A stretch of DNA of 64,000 bases from Lonicera japonica (Eukaryota; Streptophyta; Magnoliopsida; Dipsacales; Caprifoliaceae): positions 58,703,328-58,767,327 of the forward strand of contig CM038464.1 of NCBI GenBank assembly GCA_021464415.1, given 5' to 3'. Positions 18,571-36,188 of this stretch are shown here, one piece after another. Under the pieces are notes generated by a model that worked only from the letters and a program-made list of their open reading frames with translations, ran no database searches and was not told the origin of the DNA. The stretch's first letter is position 1. Each line of letters opens with the position of its first letter. The translations under genes were made by a program, and so were the position numbers.

Positions 18571-20196
18571 CAAATACTTAATTTAGTTGAGTAAATCATC
18601 TAAGTAATGTATAATTTTAAAACAGAAAATATAATTTTTTTTTAAAATAATTAATATTGTATTTTAACAAAGTGATAATTGATTTAAATAATATCAATAG
18701 CCAAAGTAAAAATGTAGTGCAAGAATAGAGATAGCCTGAAATGTTTACTTACTAATGCAATAGTTCTATTTTGGCATTAATTGGCAGTGCAAAAGGGCGC
18801 GTGTGGTCGGTGAGAAGGAATAATACTACAGTACGTACGGAAACTGCAATAGTAAGGACACATATTTATACACCCGTAACGATCTAAAATATTTGATATA
18901 CGAAAGATTCTTAATATATACATAAGTATAATAATCTTAACTTATAACTTGAGTGAGTTATTTTGAAAGAGAATTTAGATTATTATATATAGTATTAAAA
19001 TGGATACAAGATTATTACCACGTGAAATGCGGATATATATTATGGTTAGATGCGGCTAATATATAAGAGCCGAGATTGTTTGTGTGTAACCCCGTCAAGG
19101 GGAGAACTCGGGTGGTTACATATTTTGACCTTTATGCAATTACAACATCGGCTAGCTATTTTGTGGGTTGGTTACTGTATGTACAATTGTGAATCCGATC
19201 AGGGGTAATTAATTTAAAGAAAACCGTTTGAAAAATTATGTAGCGTAGTTTTAAGTACGATACTTGATTCTTGATACTTACGCTATATAAAAATATTTTT
19301 TTTAACCGAAAACTTGAAATGATTTTATAGCCATTGAAATCCCTTTCGGTTATAAAAACCAACTCATTGCTAAAAGTTATGAAGTATTGATATGGGCACG
19401 AGTACGAGACACGAGAAAAACACGATACAAGACAGGCGAGAAGGAGATTTTAAAAAACATAGGAGACGGATCGATATGGCATTTAAATAAAAATAATATA
19501 TTAATATTAAACAATAGAAAAAAAAATAGTTCACTTAAAACTGAATTAATGTACTTAACAAAATCATATAAATTTTGATAGTTCACAAAAAAAAGGTCAC
19601 CCTATTAACATAAAACTAGTGAAGCAAAAAAAGAGTGGAACTATAATAAAACTAAACAAATTAAAGAAAGTTCACAGTACGTCCTCATTCATATATTGAC
19701 CATCTAGTAATAAATTTTAATTTTGAACTTTCAAATTTTAGAAGTATGTCCCGTCGTGTTTACCGAGCGTATTTTGTGTGTCATAATAAAGTCATATGAG
19801 ACACTTCTAGCAAGTGTGGGAGGAGGTGTAAGGGGGCTTTATTTATTTGTATGATTAAAGAAAAGACTTAGACATCTCTTAACTTTTATTTTTTATTTTT
19901 AAAAAAAAAATTGCCGGACACACAGTTATATCCCTAAAAACATTTGTCCATGTTCTACGAGTGTCCGACACCATCACGTTTACTTATAAAATACCCGTGC
20001 TTCCTAAATTCAAAGGAGCTTTACTTTGCAAAATAATGCTTTTAACTTCTTTTTTTTTGGGGTAAGTAAATTAGAGGTATTTTTGATTTCGGTGGAGATA
20101 AAAATTAAGAGACCTAAATTCAAACCGAATTTGAAAGTCCGGTTCGGTTTTACAATGTTACTTTTCAAATTCAAATAAAAAATATTCGGTTTTAGC
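18571..20196. other. AT-rich intergenic DNA without recognised genes
   Basis: No coding signal. 20085-20190 has GGTTCGGTTT-type words like those near 11160. 19935-20075 is part of the diverged local duplication with 18360-18470. Confidence 0.4.
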
Positions 20197-20383
20197 TTCA
20201 TTTCTTTATTTTAATTTATATATTTTTTTTCAATTTAATTTTTTACGGGTCAATTCAACTCAGCTCGGTAGGGGTTGGACCGTTTGAATTTTTATTGCAA
20301 AACAAATCAAACTTAGTTCACACTTTCGGACGCACCCTATACATATACATAGAAATGGAGAAATATATTATACATATATATAT
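20197..20383 (+). repeat. Host segment A, left part (interrupted by MULE E1)
   Basis: Begins TTCATTTCTTTATTTTAATT and is nearly identical to 35865-36040. It ends at an AT run where MULE E1 is inserted and resumes at 29676. Together the two parts form one copy of a 324-bp segment whose uninterrupted twin follows MULE E2. Confidence 0.85.
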
Positions 20384-20394
20384 GGGAAATTCTA

Positions 20395-20590
20395 CTTACA
20401 CCACAAATTTAACTTAAATCCACCCAAAGGTAAAAAAGTACAAAAACAAGCTAAATTACACCACATTTTTCTTGTGGTAAAATTAAGATAAAATTAAAGA
20501 AAATGTGTGGTATTTTAAGTAAAAGTATAATATTTAAATTGTGGTAAAATTAAGAATTATTTGTGGTGGTAAGAACATATAATGTAAAGA
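20395..20590. promoter_or_regulatory. E1 subterminal TGTGGTR/ACCACA repeats, 5' end
   Basis: Several ACCACA/TGTGGTA words in both orientations follow the terminal repeat (near 20399, 20461, 20473, 20506, 20535 and 20560). The 3' end has a matching set (29515-29665). Clustered subterminal words are typical transposase-binding sites in TIR elements; here that role is inferred. Confidence 0.4.
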
Positions 20591-20774
20591 AAAAAAAAAC
20601 CAAATCAAACTCTACTACGACACTCTTCCCGCGTAAATAGTTGGCTTGAAGCCTTTTTTCACGGAATCAACAGATTTACAATGTAAGTGAATGCTCATTG
20701 ATAAGTATTGGTTGTTTATTATCATATATATCTACATTGGTAATGAAGTTTTTCATTTTTTTCTAAAAAGGGAA

Positions 20775-23700
20775 GAAGAAGATGAAAAACTTGAAGATTA
20801 TGTAAAGCATTCTAATATCTACATTGATAATGAAGCATTGTGTATTGAGGTATGTATATATATCCATCCTTTCCTTCCTTCAAAGCTTGTAAAAATGAGT
20901 TCCATTTTTGTAAAACGGAACACCGCTTTCGGTCATACAGAGCCGAAAAAAAAATACTTATTCAGCAACATGTTACTGATAATAAAATAATAAATCGGTA
21001 TTAACCTACCGATTAATATACAATTTACTCGGTAATTTTGTGACGATTTATAATAACATTATCGGCTATATATTGCCGAGTATTTATTTATAGTTTATTT
21101 TCTCTAAAATATTTTATTATATATTGCAGGGTTTATATTTTGTGTTAAAATCAGTAAATGATACCCAACAAACTAATACCGATGCTGTAGGTCCGATAGA
21201 ATTGGATCATGTTCCGATAGAAGTGGATCATGTTCTGATAGAAGTGGATCATATTTGTCGGACTGATCCTGGCGAGATTAGTCAAATTATTTCAGAAAAC
21301 TTCGCAAGCTATTTCTTGACAAACAAAGTAAGTACATGTTCACTACCATTTTATATTTTACTATAAGTTTTAGATAAGATGTTAAATTATTTATATCATT
21401 ATTATAGGTATTTGAGTCACGAATTGAGTTGTTCGATTGGTGTCAATGCATTGCCCGAAATCTAAACACAGTTATTGTCACATTGAAGTCAGAGAAAGAA
21501 ACTGTTGGTAGAAAAGGTAGATTGACATTAGGGTGTGAAATAGCAGGATTTTACAGAGATAATCGTAAAAGTCAAGATTAATCGGGAAATGAGAAAAAAA
21601 AAAGAATGAGGGACACTGCTACGAAAAAATGTGGATGCCCTTTTATGTTAAAGGGAGTTCCTCTCGGTGGTGATAGGTGGAAGGTGGAAGTCATATGTGG
21701 GGAACACAATCACATCATCCCAAATACTTTGATTGGTCATTCATTTGCAGGAAGGTTGAAGGGAGATGAGAAGCAAATAGTAAAGGATTTGTCTCTATGT
21801 GAAGTCAAGCCAAAGCAAATTTTGTCAACCCTTAAACAACGGGACCCAAATAACTTGGCTACAATGAAGACCATATACAACGTCAAGGCATATTTGAGGC
21901 TAAGGGATTTAGAAGGGAGAAGCATAGTGTAACAATTAATGAAAATGCTAGATGAAAAACATTATATTCATTATTGTCGCAGCGATCCTAACACAGATGA
22001 GATTACGGACATCTTTTGGGCACATCCAGATTCAATATTACTTGCAAGGTGTTTTCCCTCGGTGGTGATGGTTGATTGTACTTACAAAACCAATCGATAC
22101 CAATTACCTCTTCTTCAGATTGTTGGCAATACATCTACGTCGAAGGCCTTCTGCATTGCATTAGCATTGCTATATAAAGAGCGAGAAAACAACTATGAAT
22201 GGGCATATACACATTTGAAGAATTTGTTTGACCCCAATGCTCTCCCTAGTGTTTTCGTGAGCGATAGGGAACAAGCTTCCATGAATGCAATTGAGAAAGT
22301 TTTTTCGGATGCAAGTTTGTTGCTATGCACTTTTCATATATCGAAGAAAGTCGAACAACATTGTAAACCAATTTGTAATACAAAAGACGAGTGGACGAAT
22401 TTTATTCAAGGGTGGCACGATGTAATGCAAGCTGAGTCTGAAAAAGATTTCTTAGATATGTGGGAAGTATTTAAGAAAAACTGTCCACTTAAATTTGCAA
22501 AGTGCTTGAATTATTTAGCAACTACATGGCTCATTCACAAGGAGAGATTTGTGCTAGCTTGGACAAATAGGGTCAAGCATCGGGGTAACAGAACGACCAA
22601 TAGGGCTGAAGGTGCACATGCCAAGCTAAAGAGATGGATTGGGAGTTCGCAAAGGACATTCACAACCTTGTGGGAAGCATTGGACAATTTGATTAAAGTT
22701 GAAATCGACGAAGTAAAGGCAGATTTTTAACAAAGTATGATGAAGGTGCGACACTTTCACAAGTTTACGCAATTTAAAGAGCTAAGGTCTCACGTCTCTC
22801 ATTTTGCATTGACTAAAATAGTCGAGGAAATGGCAAAGATTCAATACATTGGAGTAGATGTTCACGTATGTGGCCATGTTGCTCGAACCGTCTATGGAAT
22901 TCCTTGTGCACATGAAATAATGCAATATGAATGAGAAGGACGACCAATTCCAATTTGTGCCATTGATAATCATTGGAAAAAGCTGTCTTTAGTACCGGAT
23001 GTTGAAGATATTGATTATGAGCCAGAGATGCAATTGTTCAAGAAAAAGTGGGCTGAGGCAACTCCTGATGAAAGGCACGTTATGTTGAAAAAGTTAAGGG
23101 AGATTGCTTGCCCATCAACAACTTTTCTTGTAGAACCGTCACCAATCATTTCCAAAGGGAGACCAAAGTCCAAAATGTCAGTGAAAGAGCGAAAACATGC
23201 GACATCTACAAAGAGAGATCCCTCAGGTTTTGAGTACGCAAATTTAAATACGAAATGTGGTACGATAAATAAGACAAAGAGCTTGCCGGTGAAAGAGACA
23301 AAACCAAAATTGTAACCTCAAACTAGAAGAAATGGCTCCCAGTTTGAGTATGCAATTTCGAAAAAGTCACATCCATTATTGTCATTCTTAGGCGAGAAAG
23401 AGACAATAGCATTGTTTCCGTTCCATCCAGTGAAGCAGACAAAACCAAAATTGCAACCTCAAACAGGGAAAAATATAGCCCAGTTTGAGTATGCAAATTT
23501 GAAAAGTTTTGGAGTAAATATAGCCATGAATGAAGTTACAAATAATTATATGTCATTATTACTTGAGTTTATTTGGCCGTTCCTAACAAAAGTAGAAGAT
23601 GTGAAGGACGACGGGAATTGCGGTTATCGTTGTGTGGGTTCGTTAATGGGCTACGACGAGGATAATGGTTGGAACAAAGTGCGTTATGCTTTGCATAAGG

Positions 23701-24149
23701 AAGTATTGATGCATCGAGGCCTTTATGAAAATATGTTTACTAAAAAAGTCGTTGAAGATGTTATCGGGATATTGAACTGTCACGATAGTCCTTGCCCACC
23801 TTCTAAATGGATGCAAATGCCAGAAATGGGTTACATCATAGCTTCAGCATACAAGGTTGTGTTAGTTTTGATATCAAAATTACAATGCCTAACATTCATG
23901 CCTCTTCATGACGCACCTAATCCTGAAATCCCACATAACCTCATAAGCATTGCATTTGTAAATGGTTGTCATTTTATGAAGTTGTTATTGGATAAAGATG
24001 CACCAATTCCACCCATTGCTTCATTTTGGCATAGATACCATACACACGAAGCAACTTCTTGGTCGGAAAATTACGATTCTAAAATTGATGAGTTTTTTAA
24101 ATTGGTGCCTGCATATGTCGCAGTTCTTGACTTTCATGATATCTTATGA
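20775..24149 (+). pseudogene. FAR1/MULE-type transposase fused to an OTU cysteine protease domain
   Basis: Exon 1 ends at GAG/GTATGT near 20850, exon 2 is 21130-21327 (GLYFVLKSVNDTQ...), and exon 3 starts at 21408; introns have GT-AG borders. Exon 3 stays in one frame to 24149: a FAR1-like zinc-binding region (KKCGCPFMLKGV...CGEHNH), a MULE DDE domain, a SWIM-like motif (CGHVARTVYGIPCAHEI), two to three KQTKPKLQPQT..FEYA linker repeats, and an OTU domain. In the 263-codon stretch starting at 21939 the acidic residues are D46 (VDCTYKT), D109 (SDREQ) and E224 (NRAEG), with the C-x2-H motif at C130/H133. The OTU nucleophile is C81 in DGNCGYRC (numbered from 23379), with a candidate His in CHFMKL. 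In-frame stops occur near 21579 and at 21930, 22728, 22932 and 23313. The enzyme would cut and paste the element in the nucleus; the OTU part would cleave ubiquitin-like conjugates. The first exon boundary is uncertain. Confidence 0.85.
20929..21079. repeat. Palindrome array 1 (TCGG-N10-CCGA), five units, in transposase intron
   Basis: Units start at 20929, 20962, 20995, 21029 and 21062, a 33-34-bp beat. Three are perfect TCGG-N10-CCGA. 20962 is TCAG-N10-CTGA, symmetric on both arms. 21029 is TCGG-N10-ACGA. The ten spacer bases differ from unit to unit. The array lies between transposase exons 1 and 2. Confidence 0.9.
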
Positions 24150-24597
24150 AGTGTAAGGTAGGTAGGCCAAGTTATTTTTTTTACACTGTATAGTATATGA
24201 TAACAATGTATTCATCAGTGAAGTAAATCTTGATGTTTTTGTTTTTTTGGGTGTGTAGACATGGCTTTCATGCCATTGAAAATTTCTTTGTAACATTGTA
24301 TAGTTAAGAATGACTTTTAATGAAAATGAAAATATTAATGGGTTCTTGTATGTTAGTTAATACTATATAAATGGGTTCTTGTTTTATGGGTACATTGTTA
24401 ACAATTTACTTATGAAATTAAGGAATATGCATTCCCATGAAAACATAAGCCAATACTATAAATTTATGGGTTCATTATTAAGAATGACTTTTAATGAAAA
24501 TAAAAATATTAATAGGTAATACATAAGAATTTACTTATGAAATTAAGGAACATGTATTCCCATGAAAACATAAGTCAATGCTATAAATTTATTGTAC
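24150..24597. other. E1 spacer downstream of the transposase-OTU gene
   Basis: AT-rich sequence holding a duplicated block: an ATGGGTTCTTGT word (24337 and 24369) and a TTACTTATGAAATTAAGGAA word with CCCATGAAAACATAAG (about 24408 and 24531). It would contain the 3' end of the transposase transcript. No ORF. Confidence 0.5.
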
Positions 24598-25244
24598 TCG
24601 GCGGTTTACAACCGAGTAAAAGAACCAAAATCATCATAATACAACCGATATAATGCACATAATTCGTCATCACATTGCCGAATACTAGCTATAATTTTAG
24701 CACTCTTATATCTGCCGAACAGAGAACTTAGATCCAAAATAGAGTCGGCGGGAGTTTGTCGAAATCAAATATTCGGCATTAAAAGGACGATAATTTTGTA
24801 AACATTCGTCAGAATAATACCACATTTTTAATAACAATCGGCGCTAATAGGCCGAGAGTTTTGTGAAAGGCAAAAAAAAATTAAGTCGGCTAGACACGAC
24901 CGAATTTAAAAAATCGGATATATAGTACCGAAAATATTATGTGTATCCGGCAATCTATTACCGAACAAAAAATTTCATTACAGATCATATTCAGTGAGAT
25001 AGTACTGAAAAATTGTATATCGGTCAAATAGTACCGAAAATATGTCACATTTTCGGTTTAACATTGCCGAAACAATAGGAAAACTTCGGTATAATGAGAC
25101 TGCCGAGCAGAATGGTTGGGGCCAAAACAATTTCGGTTATCAAGTGCCGAAATCTAGAATTCGGCAATTATGTGCCGAGAGTGATGTTTTTTTTCGGTAA
25201 CATTATGCCGATAATGATGTAAAAATTCAGCAAGAGTTAACCGT
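24598..25244. repeat. Palindrome array 2 (TCGG-N10-CCGA), about 18 units, in the convergent spacer
   Basis: Perfect units start at 24598, 24838, 24886, 24914, 25020, 25053, 25133, 25161 and 25194. Units with one altered base start at 24664 (TCGT arm), 24745 (TCGA arm), 24773 (ACGA arm) and 24947 (CCGG arm). 24991 is the symmetric TCAG-N10-CTGA, 25086 has N13, and 24631, 24806 and 25227 are more decayed. Start-to-start distances follow 28, 33, 33, 47, giving a higher-order period near 141 bp (28/33/32/48 and 29/33/33/47 are both seen, with one block of 28/33/44). The array separates the 3' ends of the two convergent genes. Confidence 0.92.
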
Positions 25245-25609
25245 AATTTCATAACTTCCAAAGAAAATCAACATTCAAAAGAAAATCAATATCCCAATTT
25301 GATGCCAAGTGAAATTCATAATATATTATCACAAAATTGGTCTACAACCTTGTCCATTAACACAAAACAAACTAATATTTGACCATAATCTAAGCGCTTG
25401 TATCTAGTACACAAAAATGATTCTACTAAGTCAAAAACCAATTAAAGCATAATCTAAGCACTAGATTTTACAAAAAAATATTCTAATTGTTTTTCCCATA
25501 ATCCAAGCGCTTCTACAAAAAAATACCAAGTCATAAAACCAACTAAACCATAGTTTAAGCACTACATTCTTCCAAAAAATATTCCCATTCAGATAACCAA
25601 GTCAAAAAA

Positions 25610-27761
25610 CTAGCATATGCAAATGTTTTCTACCGACATCGTTTCTTGCTTTGTGCTAAAAACACGACTTTTAACCCTCTTGCGTTGGGTAGGCTGTGTG
25701 GGCTGTATTGGATGTGCTGCAACTTCTTGTTCTTTACCTTTCTCGGCGGCTTCTTCTTCTTCACGTTCATTTTCACTAACTTGTTGATTACTTTCTTCTC
25801 TATTGCGATCATCTCCACTATCTTCTTCATTAATTTCTTCTCCACTACGTCCATCCTCCTCTTCAGCCACAGCCTTGCCGGTACCGTATATTGGGTCAAG
25901 AATTTCTATCACTTCTCTTAACAGCTTCTTGTTAACTTGCCCTTCCCCATCAAAATCAATTTGTTTCAAAAGCCCAACTGCCCTCCTACTTCAGCAATCT
26001 GCAATTATATACGAATACATAAACAAAAAGATTTACATATATAGAAATTAAATATGACTTATTAGTAAATTAAGAATTATTATTTTACAATGACCTTGTT
26101 TTCAACTCGATCTTGCACCTCAACTACTTTAGCTTTCCATATATGTTTAATTGCATTTTTGGGGTTCTGGACTAGCACGTGGCTTATCTTTGTGAACCAA
26201 CCCATGTAGTTAGCCCTAGCATCCCACGGATCCTTCACCGGTTCAGTGCGACTCATGTTCGCCAGTAAGTGATTTTCCCAACTTTCTTGAATCCAGTTGT
26301 CAACATTGTACTTGACTTTATATTGGCCCTATTTCTTCCCTCTTTGATCATTTGATGGCTTTATTGTTTTCTTTGGGATGGCCTGAACGCGTCCAAATTG
26401 TCGTAACACCCGGTCAGGGTAATATGGCTCCGCCACATTAAAATAAACTAATAAGCTGTTGTAATACACAAATTCTTGAAGCGGACGAATGTCTCGATGA
26501 GCATGGTAAGGATCCCAACAAACCTATGATAAAACAATGTAATAATTACATCAACAACATAAAAAATATTCAATAAATATATAAAGATTTGGAGAATTAA
26601 GTTCGCCTTATACGAATAACTTACTTCCTTTTCATTCAATGCATCTAGTTGTTCACGCAAAAGTACCACTCCTGCATTCCATCTCCAGGGGTGACCTTAG
26701 ACAACCACTTACATATTCTAGGCCATTTCTCATCATATTTTTGGTTGTATAGTGGTCTCCCTACATTAAAGTGCTCATATATCCAAGCCTACATTGATTA
26801 AAAAAAAACTTTATTTTAGCGGTAACTTAATAAATAATATGATCGAATCAGATAAAAAAAATTAATATACCTGTAAAAGCGTAAAGTAACCAACTATTTG
26901 CGCGGCATCAGCCCGAGATGCCTTTCCTAATTGACCAAATAAATATGCAAGAATAGCCATTCCCCAAGCATACCCACGTATAGCATCCAAGTCCTTAAGG
27001 CACTCTAAGTAGCTAATAGAAACTCTATTCCCAGTCTTGTCTGCAAAAATTGTACATCCTAAAAGATATAGCAAATATGCTCTCGCACATTGATCAAGGC
27101 GACTACTCTCGCTCTCTTGAGGTGTTCCTTTAAACATTGTTTTTAACCATTCTAACCTAACGGAACACGTATTCGTTTCCTTCATTGCCTCGTCAGTAGA
27201 AACACCAAGATACGTCTCTAACAAAGTAACCCCAATAGCATAGGTAAATTTCTTGCCTCCTCCGTGGACACACGTACCAATTACAGGAACACCTAGTATT
27301 TGACATACATCATCTAGGGTAATAGTCATTTCACCAAACGGGAGGTGGAAGGTATTTGTCTCGGGATGCCAACGTTCAACAAAAGCTGAGACCAAAGTTT
27401 TATCAATGAATTTGTACGTAAATTCAGCTAAATTCATAAGGCCAGATGCCTTTACGCGTTCCCTTACCCCTTCACACTTTTTGGTGATGTCCCATTCTTT
27501 CAACTTTTGGAAGTGATGTATGCATTTTAGAGGTTTTCGAGCATTTGGGTTGTTCCATATAGCATATGCTATATGGCTCTCAAAACTTGTTAGGACTGAA
27601 GAATCTTCTGGGCCTCCAGATATAGCACCCCCGCCACTACTTTCACTAGTACGATTCTCAAGATTAGACGGTGCTCTAATGGTCACTTGACTTTCTTGAG
27701 CTTTAGAAGTAATTGCTCGGCGTTTTCTCTCTGACATAGTTGGCGCTTTGCGAGTAGCCAT
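25610..27761 (-). pseudogene. Plant mobile domain (PMD, aminotransferase-like) gene of E1
   Basis: Four exons on the minus strand: 27761-26871, 26788-26625, 26523-26095 and about 25998-25610, with GT-AG borders. Start taken at MATRKAPTMSERKRR; a second ATG 39 nt upstream is in frame. The PMD signature is clear: FVERWHPETNTFHLPFGEMT, ITLDDVCQILGVPV, then AWIYEHFNVGRPLYN (exon 2) and VCWDPYHAHRDIRPLQEFVY (exon 3). The C-terminus is acidic and Glu-rich (EEINEEDSGDDRNREE) and ends in a basic KRVKS stretch. Breaks: a frameshift in exon 2 near 26667 (before VVLLREQLDAL), an in-frame TAG in exon 3 after QRGKK, and a frame change near the start of exon 4. PMD proteins occur both as host MAIN/MAIL1 factors in transcription and silencing and as cargo of MULE and gypsy elements; a role here in helping the element escape silencing would be inference. 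Confidence 0.85.
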
Positions 27762-28811
27762 CTTTTTAGAATAACACATGTTATTGGAGATTTTGCACAA
27801 GTTAAGGTTATAATTTTCACATAAAAAATTCTCATCATAATAATAACTAGCAGATAAAGTACCAAATATTTAATAATAACCAAGTTATCCAATACAAGAG
27901 AAAACTTAAAAATAACCCTTACCATATCTACCCTACCCACCCTTCCCCCCAATGAACATACGACATCACAAACCCTCTCCTTTTCTTTTTTTCCATCTCA
28001 TTACTACTTTCTTCATACACATACATATACACAACTAATCATAGCAATTAAATAAAAACCAATCTCATAGGGGTAGTGTACTGAGATTGTTACAAATTCA
28101 ATGTCCAACAGTTCAAAAAAATTACATATTAAAAATATAAAGGGCAGGATTCTATTGGTTTTCCATAAAAAAATTCTTGCAAATTTATTGCCAAAATTGA
28201 AAAAAAAAATACAAGGAAATAATTTAAGTTGCTCTTAATGATCAATCCCATTCTAAGTAAAAGTTAAAGCCAATAACAACAAATCCAAGTTTAAAATCAA
28301 ATTGTGAAGTCATATTAATTCAATTTTTTAAATGCACTAATATTATAGTCAAGTTTATTGGAAAAATAAAATGTTTAAGTCTATTTTGTGCTACAAATTA
28401 AATTCAAGCCAAAAAGTGGGAAGGAAATTAAACACACAATCAATAATGCGTGCATACAATTAGCCTAACACTAGAACTAAATCACAAATAGACAACCAAT
28501 TTTATCCGTAATTGATCTTTCTTTGCAAAAAGTGGTCAACATGGAGATATATAAAGGTATACTTTAATTAAGAACTTAAAGGTAATGAATATTAAAAAGA
28601 AAAAAAAACCATAAAATGTCCCTCTTTTTATGGGATTTTCTTCTGAAAAGGAAGGTCTCTCTATTTTACGATTTTTTCCTCTGAAAAGGAGTCTAACTCC
28701 ACCACCACTGACCCCACAACTTCTACATCAACACTTTTACTTTATTAATACAATTCATATGTTATATGTTGCTTTCATTATTTGTGGTCCATGACATTCT
28801 AAAGGAGAGTA

Positions 28812-28842
<31 letters not shown>

Positions 28843-29159
28843 ATAGCAAATATATAAAGCATCCAATTAAAAACATCCACGTACTTAAATCAATCAAGTC
28901 CTTTTTTCTCCTTAGATGTGAAATATATAGGTATACGTTATATATATATATATAGAGATATAAGCGATTTTATATATATACTACAAAAGCCCCAAAGTTA
29001 CAATACAAGTGAGATAAAACTAAAAGAGTTACAAAGTTTCATAAAAATTTTCAAGCAGCATAATCATTTGTATTTCTTTGTAGAGAGAGAAAGCTATTCT
29101 CAAAATTACAAGTATATGGTTAATGGGGGAAGAGATAGAGGCTACCTTAAAGGAATTAT
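27762..29159. other. E1 region upstream of the PMD gene
   Basis: AT-rich leader and promoter region of the minus-strand PMD gene, with an AT microsatellite (about 28812-28843) and a second at 28938-28955. A duplicated TTTTCCTCTGAAAAGGA-like word occurs near 28635 and 28675. No further gene recognised. Confidence 0.45.
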
Positions 29160-29365
29160 GACTGGCGGCGGCAAAGAAAGAGAAGGAAAATGAATCCACG
29201 CCGGAGGCGCGTAGGCAATGGCAGAGGAAGAGAAGGAAGATAAATCAGCGGTGGAGGAGCGCCGGCGAAGGCGTGTCGGCTGCTGTAGAAGAAGAGAAGG
29301 AAGATGAATCGGCGGCAGAGGAGCGTCGGCGGCGAAGGAGGAAGAGACGGCAAAGGAAGGCGGTG
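29160..29365. repeat. GC-rich, purine-rich tandem repeat near the right end of E1
   Basis: About three copies of a roughly 60-bp unit built on GAAGAGAAGGAAGATGAATC followed by GGCGG and GGAGGAGCG words (near 29176, 29229 and 29289). Base composition is far richer in G+C than the rest of E1, so it may be a captured host leader sequence. Both strands are open for 60-90 codons, which I regard as composition-driven. Confidence 0.6.
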
Positions 29366-29675
29366 GAGGCTTGACGAATTTCTAGGGCTAGTTTGTGCAC
29401 GAAGAGAAGCTGAAGGGGAGATGATGTGCGGCGTGGGTGAATTAAAGGGAAAGATAAATAAAATACTTACAAATATAAAATTTTTAAACTTAAATAAACA
29501 ATTAACTTAATTATTTGTAGTGGTGTTTTAAGAAATTTTAAGTACTTTTTAAGGTAAATTTAGTATATAGTACGTGGTGTATTTTGTGGTGGTTTAAGAA
29601 TTTTTTTGTACTTTTATGGTATTTTTCAGTTCGCGGTAATTTTCAAAAATTCTAGTGGTGTAAATAGAATTTCCC

Positions 29676-29826
29676 TATATATATACACACAACAATCAGT
29701 CAATCACCCAATCTCCTACGGACACACCCCTCTACGTTCTCGGTAGGCATTTATTTCACGTCAGTCTAGCAACAGACATAATTCCAATTATGCCCCTACT
29801 TTATGTGCTTGGTGATCACGAAATGA
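29676..29826 (+). repeat. Host segment A, right part
   Basis: Continues segment A after E1, from TATATATATACACACAACAA to CACGAAATGA, and matches 36041-36188 almost base for base. It stops 28 bp before the first base of MULE E2. Confidence 0.85.
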
Positions 29827-30085
29827 GAGTTCTTTTTTTAAATAGGTATATTTTCAAACTTATTTAGGAGTATGGGGTAGTTTTGAACTTATTTGTGGGA
29901 ATATGGTAGTTTTAAAAACGCCAGTCAAAGCCACATTTTTAAGCATAAAAATGCTAGTCAAACTAGCGTTTTTACACCGATTTAAAAAAAAAAAAAAGAA
30001 GTTAAAAACGCCAGTCAAGCTAGCGATTTTACAGTAAAAAACACCACCACCCCCAGCGTTTTTATGCAGCACAAAATTCACTCCC

Positions 30086-30352
30086 CCAGTCTCCTACCTC
30101 CGTCCTTCATTTCCTTCTCCATCATTCATTTCCTTCGAACTCAATAAAAAAAAACCGAAACTCAAACTGCCATTTCCACCGCAAGCGTCCACATCCCGCC
30201 GGAGTCGTCGTTCTCCCAGTCTCCCACCTCCGTCCTTCATTTCCTTTTCCATCATTAATTTCCTTCGAACTCAAAAAAAAAAAATCAAAAGTCAAACTGC
30301 CATTTCCACCGCCCAAGTCTCGCAATCGTCCACATCCCACCGGAGTCGTCGT
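30086..30352 (+). repeat. Tandem duplication in the leader of the GRF gene of E2
   Basis: Two copies of about 130 bp: CAGTCTCCTACCTCCGTCC at 30087 and CAGTCTCCCACCTCCGTCC at about 30218, each ending in CCACATCCCRCCGGAGTCGT. The second copy leads to a strong donor, GATCCGCAG/GTATGG at 30392, so this is probably a noncoding first exon. Confidence 0.65.
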
Positions 30353-30392
30353 TTGTCGCGCCATCTCCGTTCGTCCAGCTCCTCCGATCCGC

Positions 30393-31645
30393 AGGTATGG
30401 CACTTCTTGAGCCCTAATTTTTTTGTAGCTAGATGTTTCCATTTATGTTGGTTTGAACCATTATAGTTTGGATTGTTTTGTATTTGTTTGTGGGATTTCA
30501 ATTGGTTTATATAAGAATTTGTGGAATGAAGAAGGTGAGTTTGTGGGGGTTTCAGTTGGTTGGTTTAAGCTTGTGGGTTAGTAATTTCGAATTTTTTTAA
30601 TGAATGAGGTGGGTTTGTGGGGTTTAAGTTAGTTGGTTTATGGTTGTGGGGTTATTATTTTAGAATTTTTGGAATGAATGACGTGGGTTTGTGGGGTTTA
30701 ATTGGTTTATTTATGTTTGTAGGGTTACCATTTTTGATTTTTTGGAATGAATGAGGTGGGTTTGTGGGCTGTCATTGTCAAAATTTTGGAGTGAAGGAGG
30801 TGAGCTCGTGGGTATATTTTTAGGGTGGTCGGTGGTGTTAGATATAAGTGGAAAATCAAGTTTAATACTTGATTTTCCTGGATAAACAGTTGGAGTTTTG
30901 GAGAAATAATGCCCTTGTTAAAAATACTAAGGCTAAGAAGAAAAATTCATCTCGTAGAGTTTATAAGCATTCCATGAATGAGTTTGGACACGTTAAAGAA
31001 TTGCGAGTGCTGAGTAACAGAGATTCAAAAAGTAGTGTTGGTATTGCATTATCATGTATGATTAATTAAACCCCTACTAAAAGTTGTAATTAATTACTAT
31101 TTACTATAAATAGAAAAAATTCATTTTTTTTAGGTTTACACTTAAATAACATAAATTTAATTAAACCCCTACTAAAAGTTGTAATTAATTACTATTTAGA
31201 GATGGGAGATTCAATCATAAATCCTTAAAACTTTTGACAATTCATGAGAAGTCAAGTTTTTTCATTCCATCTCATTATTGTGTGTTATGAAATTATATTT
31301 TTCAATATTTGATATTCAATTTTTTAAACCGTGTTACAGCCCAAATGTTATTAATGTTATTAATTTTTTTAATGTTATTAATTTTCATTCCATCTCATTC
31401 ACATTTCATTAATTTTTCAAGCCATTACAGCTCAAATGCATTTCAAACAACACTAATTGAAGAGGAACAAAGTCACATCACATACATACATTACATAAAA
31501 ATACACGGTGTAACCTACATAAATTAAATCCTCTCTCTGTCACTAACACACACATTCCCACATATATACAATTTATTAATGTGAATAAACGTTATTGTGT
31601 CTAGTTTATAAAAACTATTTTTATGTATTGCATCATTTTGCGCAG
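30393..31645 (+). other. Probable leader intron of the GRF gene of E2
   Basis: Starts with GTATGG after the donor at 30392 and ends TTTTGCGCAG just before AATGTCTTC. It contains a GTGGGTTTGTGGGGTTT word repeated several times (30540-30760) and a 45-bp direct repeat around CCCCTACTAAAAGTTGTAAT (31073 and about 31166). Confidence 0.5.
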
Positions 31646-32087
31646 AATGTCTTCAAACTCTAATTCCAATTCTGGATCATCCTGTTCATATGTCACTTGC
31701 TTCTGAGGAGAGGTTGCCCCAACAAGAGTTTCATAGACGACGAGAAACCCCGGTAGAAGATTCTTAGGATGCAAAAATTTTGGTAATAATGGATGCAATT
31801 TTTTTGATTGGGTTGACAAGGAAAAAAGTGTGGATGAAAAGATGCAAGATATTCACAATAAAATGAGAGCCATACATCGCCAAAAAGAAGATTGGAGGGC
31901 TGTTGCTGAAGGGGTGAAAGAATTGAACGCCTATTTGTCTAAGCGTGTGGAAAGCGAGAGAAAAAATAGAGAAGAATTACAAAGGAAGTATGAGCAATGC
32001 AATAAAGCACTCAAGTGTGCCAGGAGTAGGGTGTATTTGCTTATGTTGCTACTTGCTCTGTCAGTTATATGTAACTTGTTTTATTAG
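31646..32087 (+). pseudogene. GRF-type zinc-finger protein with coiled coil and C-terminal membrane segment
   Basis: The frame from ATG 31647 to 32087 stays constant for 146 codons but holds two stops. After a Ser-rich start (MSSNSNSNSGSS) comes the GRF zinc finger: TCF*GEVAPTRVS*TTRNPGRRFLGC...GCNFFDWVD. The first stop (TGA, codon 20) sits where a zinc Cys is expected and the second (TAG, codon 30) where Trp is usual, so each is one base from the family residue. Residues about 62-120 are charged and helix-forming; the end, VYLLMLLLALSVICNLFY, is a membrane segment. Plant proteins of this small GRF-coiled-coil-TM type are common near MULEs; GRF fingers in other proteins bind single-stranded nucleic acid. 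It converges on the transposase gene. Confidence 0.8.
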
Positions 32088-32717
32088 GCGGTGTAGGTTT
32101 ATATGGAACACGTTATTGTTTTTTTTTGCATATATGTTATTTCAATATGTATGGATTTGGTTACACTCTATTTTTCTTAGAATGTGTAACGTTACATTGT
32201 AATGAATTTATATTAGTTAATGAATGGATGTCTTTTATATAAATTATACATATGGCAGGAGTAGGTTTATTTGTTAAGCTATGTACATATATGTAAATAT
32301 CGAATGTGCTTTTTTAATTTTCTCGTATTTAATGAAGATGTACATGAAACAGGTAGTTGTAGATTCACCATGGTCCTAAGGACCAACATTTGTTATTTTT
32401 ACATGAGGCTCATAAGTCTTCTGCTGTATGGGAGGGTGATGACCCGATGCCGGATAAACAAATAGATAGAGAGGAGTACATAACTAAATAAATTAATAAT
32501 TAACAAAAATATTAGCAATAACCCAAACATAAAAAATAAAAGCTATACAAAAATAATTAAAAAAATTAAAAAAGAAAAAGAAAACAAAACTAACAAAATA
32601 TATCGATGAATAACTTGATCGTATGCGAGCAGAGCAGGTAATTCTAATTATAATCAACTAATTATTATGTTGATTCGGAGTTAAAATTATAAATCTGTTT
32701 ATGGTGAACTATTACTT
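32088..32717. other. Central spacer of E2 between the convergent genes
   Basis: AT-rich, with an A-rich stretch at 32500-32600. The C-terminal part of the transposase, expected here on the minus strand, is not recognisable, so a deletion is likely. Unlike E1, no TCGG-N10-CCGA array is present. Confidence 0.5.
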
Positions 32718-34582
32718 TTATGGATATTGGTCTGGGATATTTATACATGTCCATGGTTTCTTTCCTTCGCTCTCTTGCTGTTCATCGTATTCTTTTATCA
32801 TGTCCATGTACTTATTGAATTTGGGTAAGCAGTAAGCAGTAACAGCCTTCCATATTAAGATCCTTAACGTTTCATCTGGTTTACATTTACTTGTGAAATT
32901 ACTGCGGACATGTCGCATACAAAACCTATGGTACGTCATCTGCTCTTGAAATTGTGGGTGGGAATTAATTACAGAAAGAATGCCCCTGTGGCGATCAGAA
33001 ATCAAGCATACCCCGTCTCTTCCCTTCACGACATAATGCCAAAGTCGCGTGAGAAAGTAATTACATGTGTCGTGACTTTCCTCATCGCTGTATCCAAACG
33101 CAAGTGGAAATATCCCTTCGCTGGCATCCATGGCCATTGCAACAAACAATTTCCCATTGTACTTACCACGTAGATGTGTCGCGTCTATACTTATAACAGG
33201 TCGGCAATGCATAAAGCCTTCAACAGATGCACTAAAGGCCCAAAAGTTCTTGTCAAAAATACGAAAATGCCCATCATACACCTTGCTTTTACACTCGTGG
33301 ATTGTGCGTGGGTTGTTGTACTTAATGGAGGCCAAATATCTGGGCATAATAGCATAAGAGTCTTTCCAATTGCCAAATAATTTTTCAATAGCCTTTTGTT
33401 TCGCATTCTATGCCTTCCAATATGAAATCTTGTAGCTATATTTATCCTTAACAAATGCAATGACAACGCGAATCTTAAGGCTTGGATCAACCTCAACCAA
33501 GTGTTTTACTTTGCTGGCAATGAATTTACAGTCTAAATGTTTGTGAGTTAATTTCAAATGATTAAATGTGCATGTGTGGGGACCCTCGTACTTGGTTATC
33601 TCAAATTGTCCGTGTTTTTTCTTCCTCTTACACGCACGAAGTCGCCATTTGCACCATTTTTCATGCAATTTACACCTAATTGCCCATGTATCTGCCTTTG
33701 ATTCATCGACGATAAATTCATTTGCATTCTTAATTGCAAAATGTTTTATGGCAATCTTCAACTCATTTTTAGTCTCGTACGTCAGCCCCTTTCGCAATTC
33801 ATTTTCATCTTCTAACTTCTCATTCATCATCAACTCCTCGTCCACAAAAGTAACATTATACTGTGTGTAGAACGATGGTATATCTTCAGCAGCCTGCTTA
33901 AACTGCTTCGATTCTCCCCTTTCATCACTTTCACTGTCACTGGATTCTGTAAAACTGTTAGAATCTGAGCCCCAATCCGTATCCTCTCCAGTGGTGTCAT
34001 CATATTCACCATCTCCACAGTCATGCATGGCCTCGGGGCCACCATCTCCACAATAATACATGGCCTTGGTTGTGGGTAGATTCGGATTGTAAATCTTCTT
34101 CTTACTCCCACCAAAGTCAAGCCTTCGTGATGGCTGCGAACTACTCGGCAACTTAGAAATATAAGTGCATTGTGTCGATGGTGGCGAGCTGTACGACCCA
34201 GACAATGGAAAATTTTCCCCAATTGGCCCTACATCATAATTCAGGACAATTTTTTCTATATACAACTCGATCACATTGACAAATGAAGCATTGAAAATAG
34301 TACCCATTGCAAACCGTAAGGTTCCGTTATCGTTAATTTCATGAATAAAGTAGTTACAAGTATTTGGAGACACAAACATTGGGCATCTACAGAAAATCTT
34401 TAACGTCGACGGTGATTGGTCAGATCCATAGCAGAATAAATAATTTGTACTAATTCCGAGTAGGTAACATCTTCATTTAAGATAATGCCACTTTTGTGCG
34501 GAATATCATAACCATAGCCATGCTCTTCGCTAATAATATGTCCGCCCCAATATAAAAGCGTAAAAATTTGTCGGTTTGCCAT
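32718..34582 (-). pseudogene. MuDR-type MULE transposase of E2, truncated and interrupted
   Basis: The N-terminus is MANRQIFTLLYWGGHIISEE, as in plant MuDR-type transposases. A 1-nt frameshift lies near 34415, after which STLKIFCRCPMFVSPNTCNY continues. The MuDR DNA-binding region (KADTWAIRCKLHEKWCKWRL ... GPHTCTFNHLKLTHKHLD) follows. At 33408 there is a stop (TAG) in SYWKA*NAKQKAIEKLFGNW, at a position usually Trp. The DDE core then reads HCRPVISIDATHLRGKYNGK with D55 and LISDRHRG with D118 (numbered from the Met at 33347), plus CMRH. The frame ends after CINIPDQYP, before the third catalytic acid and the SWIM zinc finger, so the protein could not be active. Product would act in the nucleus on the long TIRs. 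Confidence 0.88.
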
Positions 34583-35678
34583 TTTTCACCTTCAACACAA
34601 TTAATCAAATTTATCACTAGCTGATAATAAATAATATATTTTTAAAATAAATATATGATGTTAAAATAAGTACATATATACATTCTTCAACACACTTGAC
34701 TAAATATTCAAAATAAAAAATTATGCATTAAGCCATACGAAATATGATAATAAATAATATACTTATAATTGCCAAAGCGTACAATAAATAATGATAAAGA
34801 CATTCTTTAACATAAAACTCATTACTCATTAAAATAAATACATATATACAATTTTCAACATACTTAAATAATTGTTCAAAATAAAATATTAAGGATTAAG
34901 CCATACAAAATATGATAATAAATAATATACTTAAAATTACTAAGATATACAATATATGATGATAAACACTTTTTTTAACATAAAGCACTACTAAATATGA
35001 TAATAAATAATTTATTCAAAATTGTAAATCATCTCTTCCATAAAAAAAATAATTAATTATAATGTATTATATTTAGCAAAAAATAGAGGTTTTTTGACAC
35101 TTTTGTCCTATAGGAAAAAAATGTAAAACATTTGTTCCACTTCTGTCTTAAGGCACTCAACTTTTATTTTTAAGCATATTTATAATAATGAGACTGAAGT
35201 GTCTTAGGATAAGCGTGGAATGCTAATATCATTTTTCTATATTTATACTAACAAATAAATTTTTTAAAATTATAAAATAAATTTGTCAAAGAAAATAAAT
35301 CTTGAACATACATACATACATACATACATTGATTCCACAAATCTATATCATAAATCCACAAATCTATATCATAAATCAACATATATACATTACAATCAAA
35401 CATATTTCTTTCCCATTATAACTTGATATTATGTGAAACATAACAATATATATTAAAAAATCAACTTTGTAATAAACTAACCTTCTTCTTTTCAAGTGAA
35501 TAGATGGAGGTTTTGGAGTGTAATGGAACTTTAGGAATGAATGAATGAATGGAGCTTAAATAAAAATGGTGAATTTCAGGTGAGCTGATGAAAGTGGTGA
35601 GTTTTTTACGCGTAAAAACGCTATAGTGATCAGCGTTTTTACCACTCGAAATTTTTATTATTTTTTTAAAATCACTGT
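34583..35678. other. E2 region between transposase start and the right TIR
   Basis: Promoter and leader region of the minus-strand transposase. Very AT-rich, with repeated ATATGATAATAAATAATAT words (about 34742, 34912 and 34987) and a CATA tetramer run near 35308-35328. No gene recognised. Confidence 0.5.
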
Positions 35679-35864
35679 TTTGTGCTGCATAAAAACACTA
35701 GGGGTGGTGGTGTTTTTTACTGTAAAATCGCCAGCTTGACTGGCGTTTTTAACTTCTTCTTCTTCTTTTTTTAAATCGGTGTAAAAACGTGGCTTTGACT
35801 GGTGTTTTTAAAACTACCCTATTCCCACAAATAAATTCAAAACTACCCTATTCCCACAAATAAA

Positions 35865-36188
35865 TTCATTTCTTTATTTTAATTTATATAATTTTTTTCA
35901 ATTTAATTTTTTACGGATCAATTCAACTCAGCTCGGTAGCGGTTGGACCGTTTGAATTTTTATTGCAAAACAAATCAAATTTTAGACGCACCCTAGCTAT
36001 AACATATACATAGAAATGGAGAAATATATTATACATATATATATATACACACAACAATCAGTCAATCACCCAATCTCCTACGGACACACCCCTCTATGTT
36101 CTCAGTAGGCATTTATTTCACGTCAGTCTAGCAACAGACATAATTCCAATTATGCCCCTACTTTATGTGCTTGGTGATCACGAAATGA
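35865..36188 (+). repeat. Host segment A', intact copy (empty site for E1)
   Basis: Starts directly after the last base of E2 and matches segment A from TTCATTTCTTTATTTTAATT to CACGAAATGA. Where A is split by E1, A' reads ATACATATATATATATACAC without interruption. Hence the 324-bp duplication predates E1. Confidence 0.9.

Follow-up and report, generated by a model that had tools for sequence, protein, structure and literature searches.

What might read the array of short palindromes that lies between the two convergent genes of the MULE element E1 (Table 1)? The original prediction for the window, by which we mean the whole 64-kb stretch of DNA analysed here, described nine perfect and about nine decayed units of the palindrome TCGG-N10-CCGA, with constant half-sites and widely differing spacers, and took them for a cluster of sites of a dimeric DNA-binding protein.

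The element and its two site clusters

E1 has the structural features of a MULE, terminal inverted repeats (TIR) and a target-site duplication (TSD), which at 9 bp falls within the 8-11 bp of MULEs, the TSD being weak evidence on account of its low complexity. Its termini are GGGAAATTCTACTTACACCAC and an inverse copy with one change, giving a TIR of about 21 bp. The gene order is transposase gene, array, and convergent plant-mobile-domain (PMD) gene. The encoded MULE transposase domain matches PF10551 above the cut-off (E 2.2e-23), and the PMD matches PF10536 (E 4.1e-45); the top protein match for the PMD gene comes from Lonicera macranthoides, at 93% identity over 89% of the query. In this copy a stop codon separates two transposase frames, and some other E1-type copies have longer open transposase frames. 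The OTU-like frame of E1 gave no Pfam match, and the best match of its homologue at locus L008, Otubain, is non-significant (E 0.22).

Table 1. Features of E1 within the window
Feature	Position	Strand	Details
MULE element E1, 9,292 bp	20384..29675	.	terminal inverted repeats GGGAAATTCTAYTTACACCAC
Left target-site duplication	20375..20383	.	TATATATAT; low complexity, weak evidence
Right target-site duplication	29676..29684	.	TATATATAT
Putative transposase-gene intron with upstream cluster	20850..21129	+	GTATGT donor, GCAG acceptor between open pieces
Upstream cluster	20929..21079	+	units 20929, 20962 (2 mismatches), 20995, 21029 (1 mismatch), 21062
MULE transposase core	21582..22730	+	weak FAR1 match 21582-21932; MULE domain 21933-22730
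Transposase C-terminal region, OTU-like segment	22935..24149	+	DGNC...H pattern, by eye
Convergent-spacer array, TCGGY-N8-RCCGA units	24598..25244	+	unit starts often 28 or 33 bp apart
Convergent gene with plant mobile domain (PF10536)	25610..27761	-	PMD exon 26862-27761; weak DUF1985 match

A recount of the convergent spacer returned the nine perfect units, which start at 24598, 24838, 24886, 24914, 25020, 25053, 25133, 25161 and 25194 and span 24598-25211. At gap 10 a further four units carry one mismatch and four carry two, so that the decayed class comes to eight rather than about nine. The single exception described earlier, the unit at 25086, is indeed the only perfect N13 pair in E1; two N38 pairs complete the perfect pairs at gaps up to 40 other than N10. 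The earlier description of the array was thus correct but too narrow, as it lacked a second, upstream cluster, in which three units are perfect (20929, 20995 and 21062) and successive units are 33, 33, 34 and 33 bp apart. This cluster is probably intronic in the transposase gene, given the splice donor and acceptor sequences that stand between open transposase pieces.

The whole 64 kb holds 12 perfect units against 0.13 expected by chance, a number reached in none of 100 shuffles, and all 12 are confined to the two noncoding clusters of E1, with single one-mismatch units at 21258 and 27717. Half-sites lie 14 bp apart, centre to centre, and neighbouring units commonly start 28 or 33 bp from one another. 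The base just inside the half-site is also constrained in the perfect units: a Y follows the left half-site in 11 of the 12, and an R precedes the right one in all 12. CpG observed/expected is 1.75 in the convergent array and 1.92 in the putative intron (on 20851-21129), compared with 0.68 in the window.

The 10-bp gap is enriched across the genome

The original prediction had made the density of the N10 spacing elsewhere in the genome a point to be checked. Across the one genome read (886 Mb), where only perfect matches were counted, TCGG-N10-CCGA occurs 16,127 times and its backwards control 3,987 times. As the backwards control holds no CpG, other gaps were taken as the better control: gaps 0-30 combined give 133,165 pairs, or about 3,901 for each of the gaps apart from 10, a figure that is slightly low if counting allows one match per start. 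N10 is therefore far commoner than other gaps, and the excess of some 12,000 sites over the other-gap expectation means that any binder would have many loci. The extended form TCGGY-N8-RCCGA accounts for 13,879 of the 16,127 N10 pairs, with 765 for its backwards control. From the first places listed, ten 9.9-kb loci were chosen for their clusters; in them gap 10 accounts for 55 perfect pairs, followed among gaps 0-40 by gap 23 (9 pairs) and gap 3 (5 pairs).

Half-sites are conserved outside CpG in the convergent array

A search with E1 gave 30 loci, one of which (L016) is E1 itself; 20 others could be aligned over the convergent array, giving 21 rows, while two (L018 and L020) were left out as too short and seven had no match there. 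In these rows the array stretch measures 395-812 bp and holds 4-11 perfect units. Outside CpG, half-sites differ from the majority base at 38 of 1,031 positions (0.037), compared with 222 of 1,980 in spacers (0.112), 1,007 of 10,019 in linkers (0.100) and 38 of 474 at the inner Y/R positions, so that half-sites change at about one third of the spacer or linker rate. When the half-site mask was shifted circularly over 20 rows (the identical L015 removed), none of 611 shifts was as conserved outside CpG as the half-sites themselves (observed 0.0378, shift mean 0.111, lowest shift 0.0615). In the family of loci L006, L008 and L012, for which 14 rows (two of them partial) of a higher-order repeat some 123 bp long were aligned, the non-CpG mismatch rate is 0.029 in half-sites, while spacers reach 0.141 and linkers 0.124. 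Units were chosen where the consensus came close to the motif, which biases these comparisons mildly toward conservation.

At CpG positions of the convergent array the picture is different: mismatches number 82 of 1,032 in half-sites (0.080), 18 of 276 in linkers (0.065) and 33 of 84 in spacers, and half-site CpGs are thus retained no better than linker CpGs. Among the 82 half-site CpG mismatches in E1 copies 72 are transitions, which make up 72 of all 120 half-site mismatches. An excess of CpG transitions is a mark of cytosine methylation. Judging by the substitutions, site loss proceeds largely through CpG transition.

The upstream cluster (four units, 25 rows, with 5 of the 29 other loci contributing no row) has non-CpG mismatch rates of 22/400 in half-sites (0.055), 263/4,556 in linkers (0.058) and 83/800 in spacers (0.104). 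Taken alone over 24 rows it does not clearly show half-site conservation, as 21 of 150 shifts were as low or lower, and its fraction of variable columns exceeds the shift mean. The substitution test put forward with the original prediction came out in its favour for the convergent array outside CpG.

The earlier note had also allowed for a satellite that keeps a hairpin. A satellite or hairpin-forming repeat that is homogenised with no bound protein would be in keeping with the higher-order tandem repeats of 115-148 bp found in several arrays and with the near-perfect palindromic spacers seen at some loci elsewhere. Homogenisation would also preserve spacers and linkers, yet these change outside CpG about 2.7 to 4.9 times as fast as half-sites, a contrast on which homogenisation of whole arrays was rejected as the cause of the conservation. 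Arrays of different families, moreover, have little else in common, blastn at E 0.01 finding only stretches of 15-84 bp between them. A hairpin or other covarying structure was rejected because paired spacer positions match at about the rate expected from composition, or less, in four groups of 12, 25, 11 and 20 units. With no such co-variation and with unconserved spacers, we consider this explanation very improbable.

Some related elements carry the same geometry at the predicted place

By their protein-level matches, most of the ten cluster loci are E1 relatives. The OTU-like region of E1 is matched by L005 (28% amino-acid identity) and L008 (38%), L011 matches both of these loci, and a piece of L005 matches the E1 transposase at 52%. 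An upstream frame, which we took for an N-terminal transposase exon, is common to L006, L008 and L012. The array of L008 lies past the end of the OTU-like segment; that of L005 has the end of this segment on one side and an opposite-strand PMD gene on the other, which corresponds to the layout of E1. An upstream cluster is also present in L008 (6202-6354) and L012 (4417-4450); upstream, L005, L006 and L011 show no more than isolated perfect units. The array-bearing loci L006, L008, L011 and L012 contain no PMD match and are possibly deletion derivatives. L010 resembles L014 over 104 bp.

A search with the transposase core listed 144 places, from which we sampled six relatives whose transposases are 50-67% identical to that of E1 in amino acids, and examined 1.1 kb of each at the predicted array place, a position that was fixed before any sequence was seen. 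Arrays were present in three of the six predicted spacers, with five (L048), seven (L050) and four (L053) perfect units against a Markov expectation of 0.01 or less each. All 16 perfect pairs in these three spacers have gap 10; the remaining gaps between 0 and 30 had none. Steps of 33 bp occur in L048, L050 and L053 and a 28-bp step in L050; across 12 arrays a neighbour step of 33 bp is found in seven, of 34 bp in five and of 28 bp in two.

The remaining predicted spacers, L049, L051 and L052, contain no perfect TCGG-N10-CCGA unit, so that in this small sample the motif is missing from three of six relatives, two of which (L049 and L052) have other tandem repeats in its place. The L049 spacer holds 5.9 copies of a 148-bp tandem repeat (L049:1-871); on its source contig the transposase and PMD matches converge, yet the repeats differ from the E1 type. 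Inverted repeats of a different geometry, AGCGA-N15-TCGCT and CTGGG-N5-CCCAG, occur five times each within the L049 repeat. L051 has repeated words and no comparable tandem array; at L051:600-1100, words resembling CCGAGCTTGATACC recur in one orientation.

The recurrence of the geometry in diverged families, together with half-sites that are conserved outside CpG, spacers that are free to vary and the lack of spacer co-variation, bears out the proposal that the convergent array would be made up of sites that a DNA-binding dimer reads, which we regard as well supported at the level of sequence.

Within about 3 kb downstream of other PMD matches (L045-L047), none of the three loci has an N10 pair, which gives no support to the presence of a PMD alone as a predictor of the motif. 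Beside the PMD gene of L047 (L047:2590-2766) lies a different CpG-rich palindrome, TGTCGCGCGACA, in short tandem repeats, which is possibly the target site of another family.

A second motif with the same geometry

The predicted spacer of L052 holds 3.6 copies of a 124-bp repeat, within which six perfect ACTCACC-N8-GGTGAGT palindromes follow one another at steps of 34, 90, 124, 34 and 90 bp; a decayed unit falls within the long step. This palindrome occurs 583 times genome-wide against once for its backwards control. Its gap specificity is judged from the L052 spacer only. Exact inverted repeats of 7 bp also occur there at gaps 4 to 16 (nine at gap 8 and six at gap 10), several of which read one and the same palindrome in a shifted or overlapping register. 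The agreement in geometry was a post hoc observation, made in one of the three families that lack the TCGG array. A corresponding reading, ACTCGGY-N8-RCCGAGT, fits some of the TCGG arrays (L014, L053 and most of L048); the ACT flank is not shared by E1's own units. With equal geometry and different letters, the L052 sister family offers a natural specificity swap for finding the protein residues that read the site.

These findings bear on the idea of a host DNA-binding protein that is drawn to the arrays, which would then serve as an enhancer, an insulator or a terminator in the space between the convergent genes. Such a role would suit their placement, within a putative intron and between convergent genes, and also the wide spread of the site across the genome. 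The other letters of L052 and the other repeat of L049, however, fit better with an element-encoded binder that changes together with its sites, and we know of no host factor with a TCGG-N10-CCGA site; we hold this reading to be improbable.

Candidate element-encoded binders

The palindromic half-sites, the free spacer, the phased clusters, the tandem-repeat turnover and the different letters of a sister family agree with the expectation for sites of an element-encoded dimer. Transposase binding is the main rival to PMD binding among such proteins: the arrays would be internal sites for a dimer of the FAR1/WRKY-GCM-type zinc finger, serving the transposition complex or promoter/intron regulation. 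Four short elements with MULE-like ends (L007, L009, L013 and L014) bear arrays without any match to E1 proteins, as a cis requirement for mobilisation predicts, and the right inverted-repeat arm of L013 (4533-4645) contains two units (4539 and 4573). One of the two E1 clusters sits in the transposase gene, and the array-bearing families are related through their transposase. MULE transposases bind terminal stretches, however, and those of E1, 20384-20928 (545 bp) and 29330-29675 (346 bp), contain no TCGG or CCGA, while its larger cluster lies mid-element. MuDR-type transposase sites, which are likewise short and are read by a MULE-encoded protein, as those of the E1 arrays would be, sit in the terminal repeats, whereas the E1 arrays are internal. 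Transposase binding is, in our judgement, unlikely.

The reading that we prefer is that the arrays are bound by an element-encoded dimer, probably the PMD product, that would act in cis against silencing in the manner of VANC; we give it a probability of about 45%. The dimer would read TCGGY half-sites that face each other across 8 bp. Its source may be the convergent gene, the PMD being favoured as binder because it is the accessory gene of the element, because of its weak similarity to DUF1985, and because the available text of PMC5418596 already speculates in this direction. The DUF1985 match in the E1 PMD exon lies below the Pfam cut-off (E 1.2e-4), and 7 of 34 homologues match the domain at E 0.01 or better (best E 1.3e-4, with member 1 under the Pfam cut-off). 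The AlphaFold model of the PMD (P0001, mean pLDDT 76.2) matched the fold of no solved structure at E 0.001 or better and the protein matched none by sequence, which leaves DNA binding by the PMD without structural support. Once bound, the PMD protein would protect the CpG-rich arrays from DNA methylation or from silent chromatin, in the way that VANC does in Arabidopsis VANDALs, and families may split through a joint change of half-sites and binder, as from TCGGY to TCACC, under a constant geometry.

As described in the accessible portions of PMC5735166 and PMC10398659, VANC proteins bind short noncoding motifs in fast-changing tandem repeats and induce methylation loss; DUF1985 is a domain of these proteins (PMC5735166). 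E1 has the VANDAL-type combination of a motif that is dense in noncoding and sparse in coding DNA, and of tandem repeats that vary between copies. According to the same portions of the two papers, VANDAL21 and VANDAL6 are likewise Mu-like transposons with a dense short noncoding motif upstream of the transposase gene or in introns, with gain and loss of tandem repeats between copies and with a motif that differs in related families. The motifs read by VANC are described there as short and non-palindromic (YAGTATTAY; AGTTGTCC/AGTTGTAC), in contrast to the fixed-gap palindrome of E1 with its 28/33-bp steps, and those of VANC21 are arrayed in one orientation, unlike the E1 palindromes. The accessory gene also differs, encoding a PMD in E1 and VANC with DUF1985 and DUF287 in the VANDALs. 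By this analogy we infer that the arrays may have a VANDAL-like target role, as the original prediction had suggested.

That a PMD serves a MULE as anti-silencer is not new, having been put forward as speculation for MULE-captured PMD genes (PMC5418596). The captured genes in the available text of that source resemble E1 in that a PMD gene lies within a MULE, and differ in being transposase-PMD fusions of grasses and Amborella, whereas the E1 PMD is a separate convergent gene in Lonicera and is accompanied by a candidate cis target. A literature search by titles and abstract starts, which covered few subscription papers, returned no report of such arrays in PMD-MULEs. The array of fixed geometry beside a PMD gene provides a concrete probe sequence for the anti-silencing idea.

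A broader and more tentative proposal, which we find somewhat unlikely as it stands, is that PMD proteins borne by MULEs of the E1 kind are sequence-specific dimeric anti-silencing factors, forming a second VANC-like system whose targets are phased palindromes that switch letters. The host PMD proteins MAIN and MAIL1 maintain silencing. If the proposal were true, MAIN and MAIL1 would be kin of a transposon DNA-binding factor, and binder and target would co-evolve with the architecture unchanged.

The neighbourhood of E1

Part of E1 and 434 bp outside the element (window 19950-25700) recur identically downstream (G000:C2, offset +65,463): all 5,751 bp compared are the same in the two copies (L015 and L016), 65,463 bp apart, which reflects either a large duplication that is very recent or a duplicate introduced by the assembly. 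Directly to the right of E1 lies a neighbouring element (window 29857-35866) with long inverted arms of 93 and 85 nt (94% and 88%) and a transposase-like frame, recognised by eye, at 32718-33407 on the minus strand. A 118-bp direct repeat, 97% identical, occurs just left of E1 (20197-20314) and at the right end of this neighbouring element (35865-35982).
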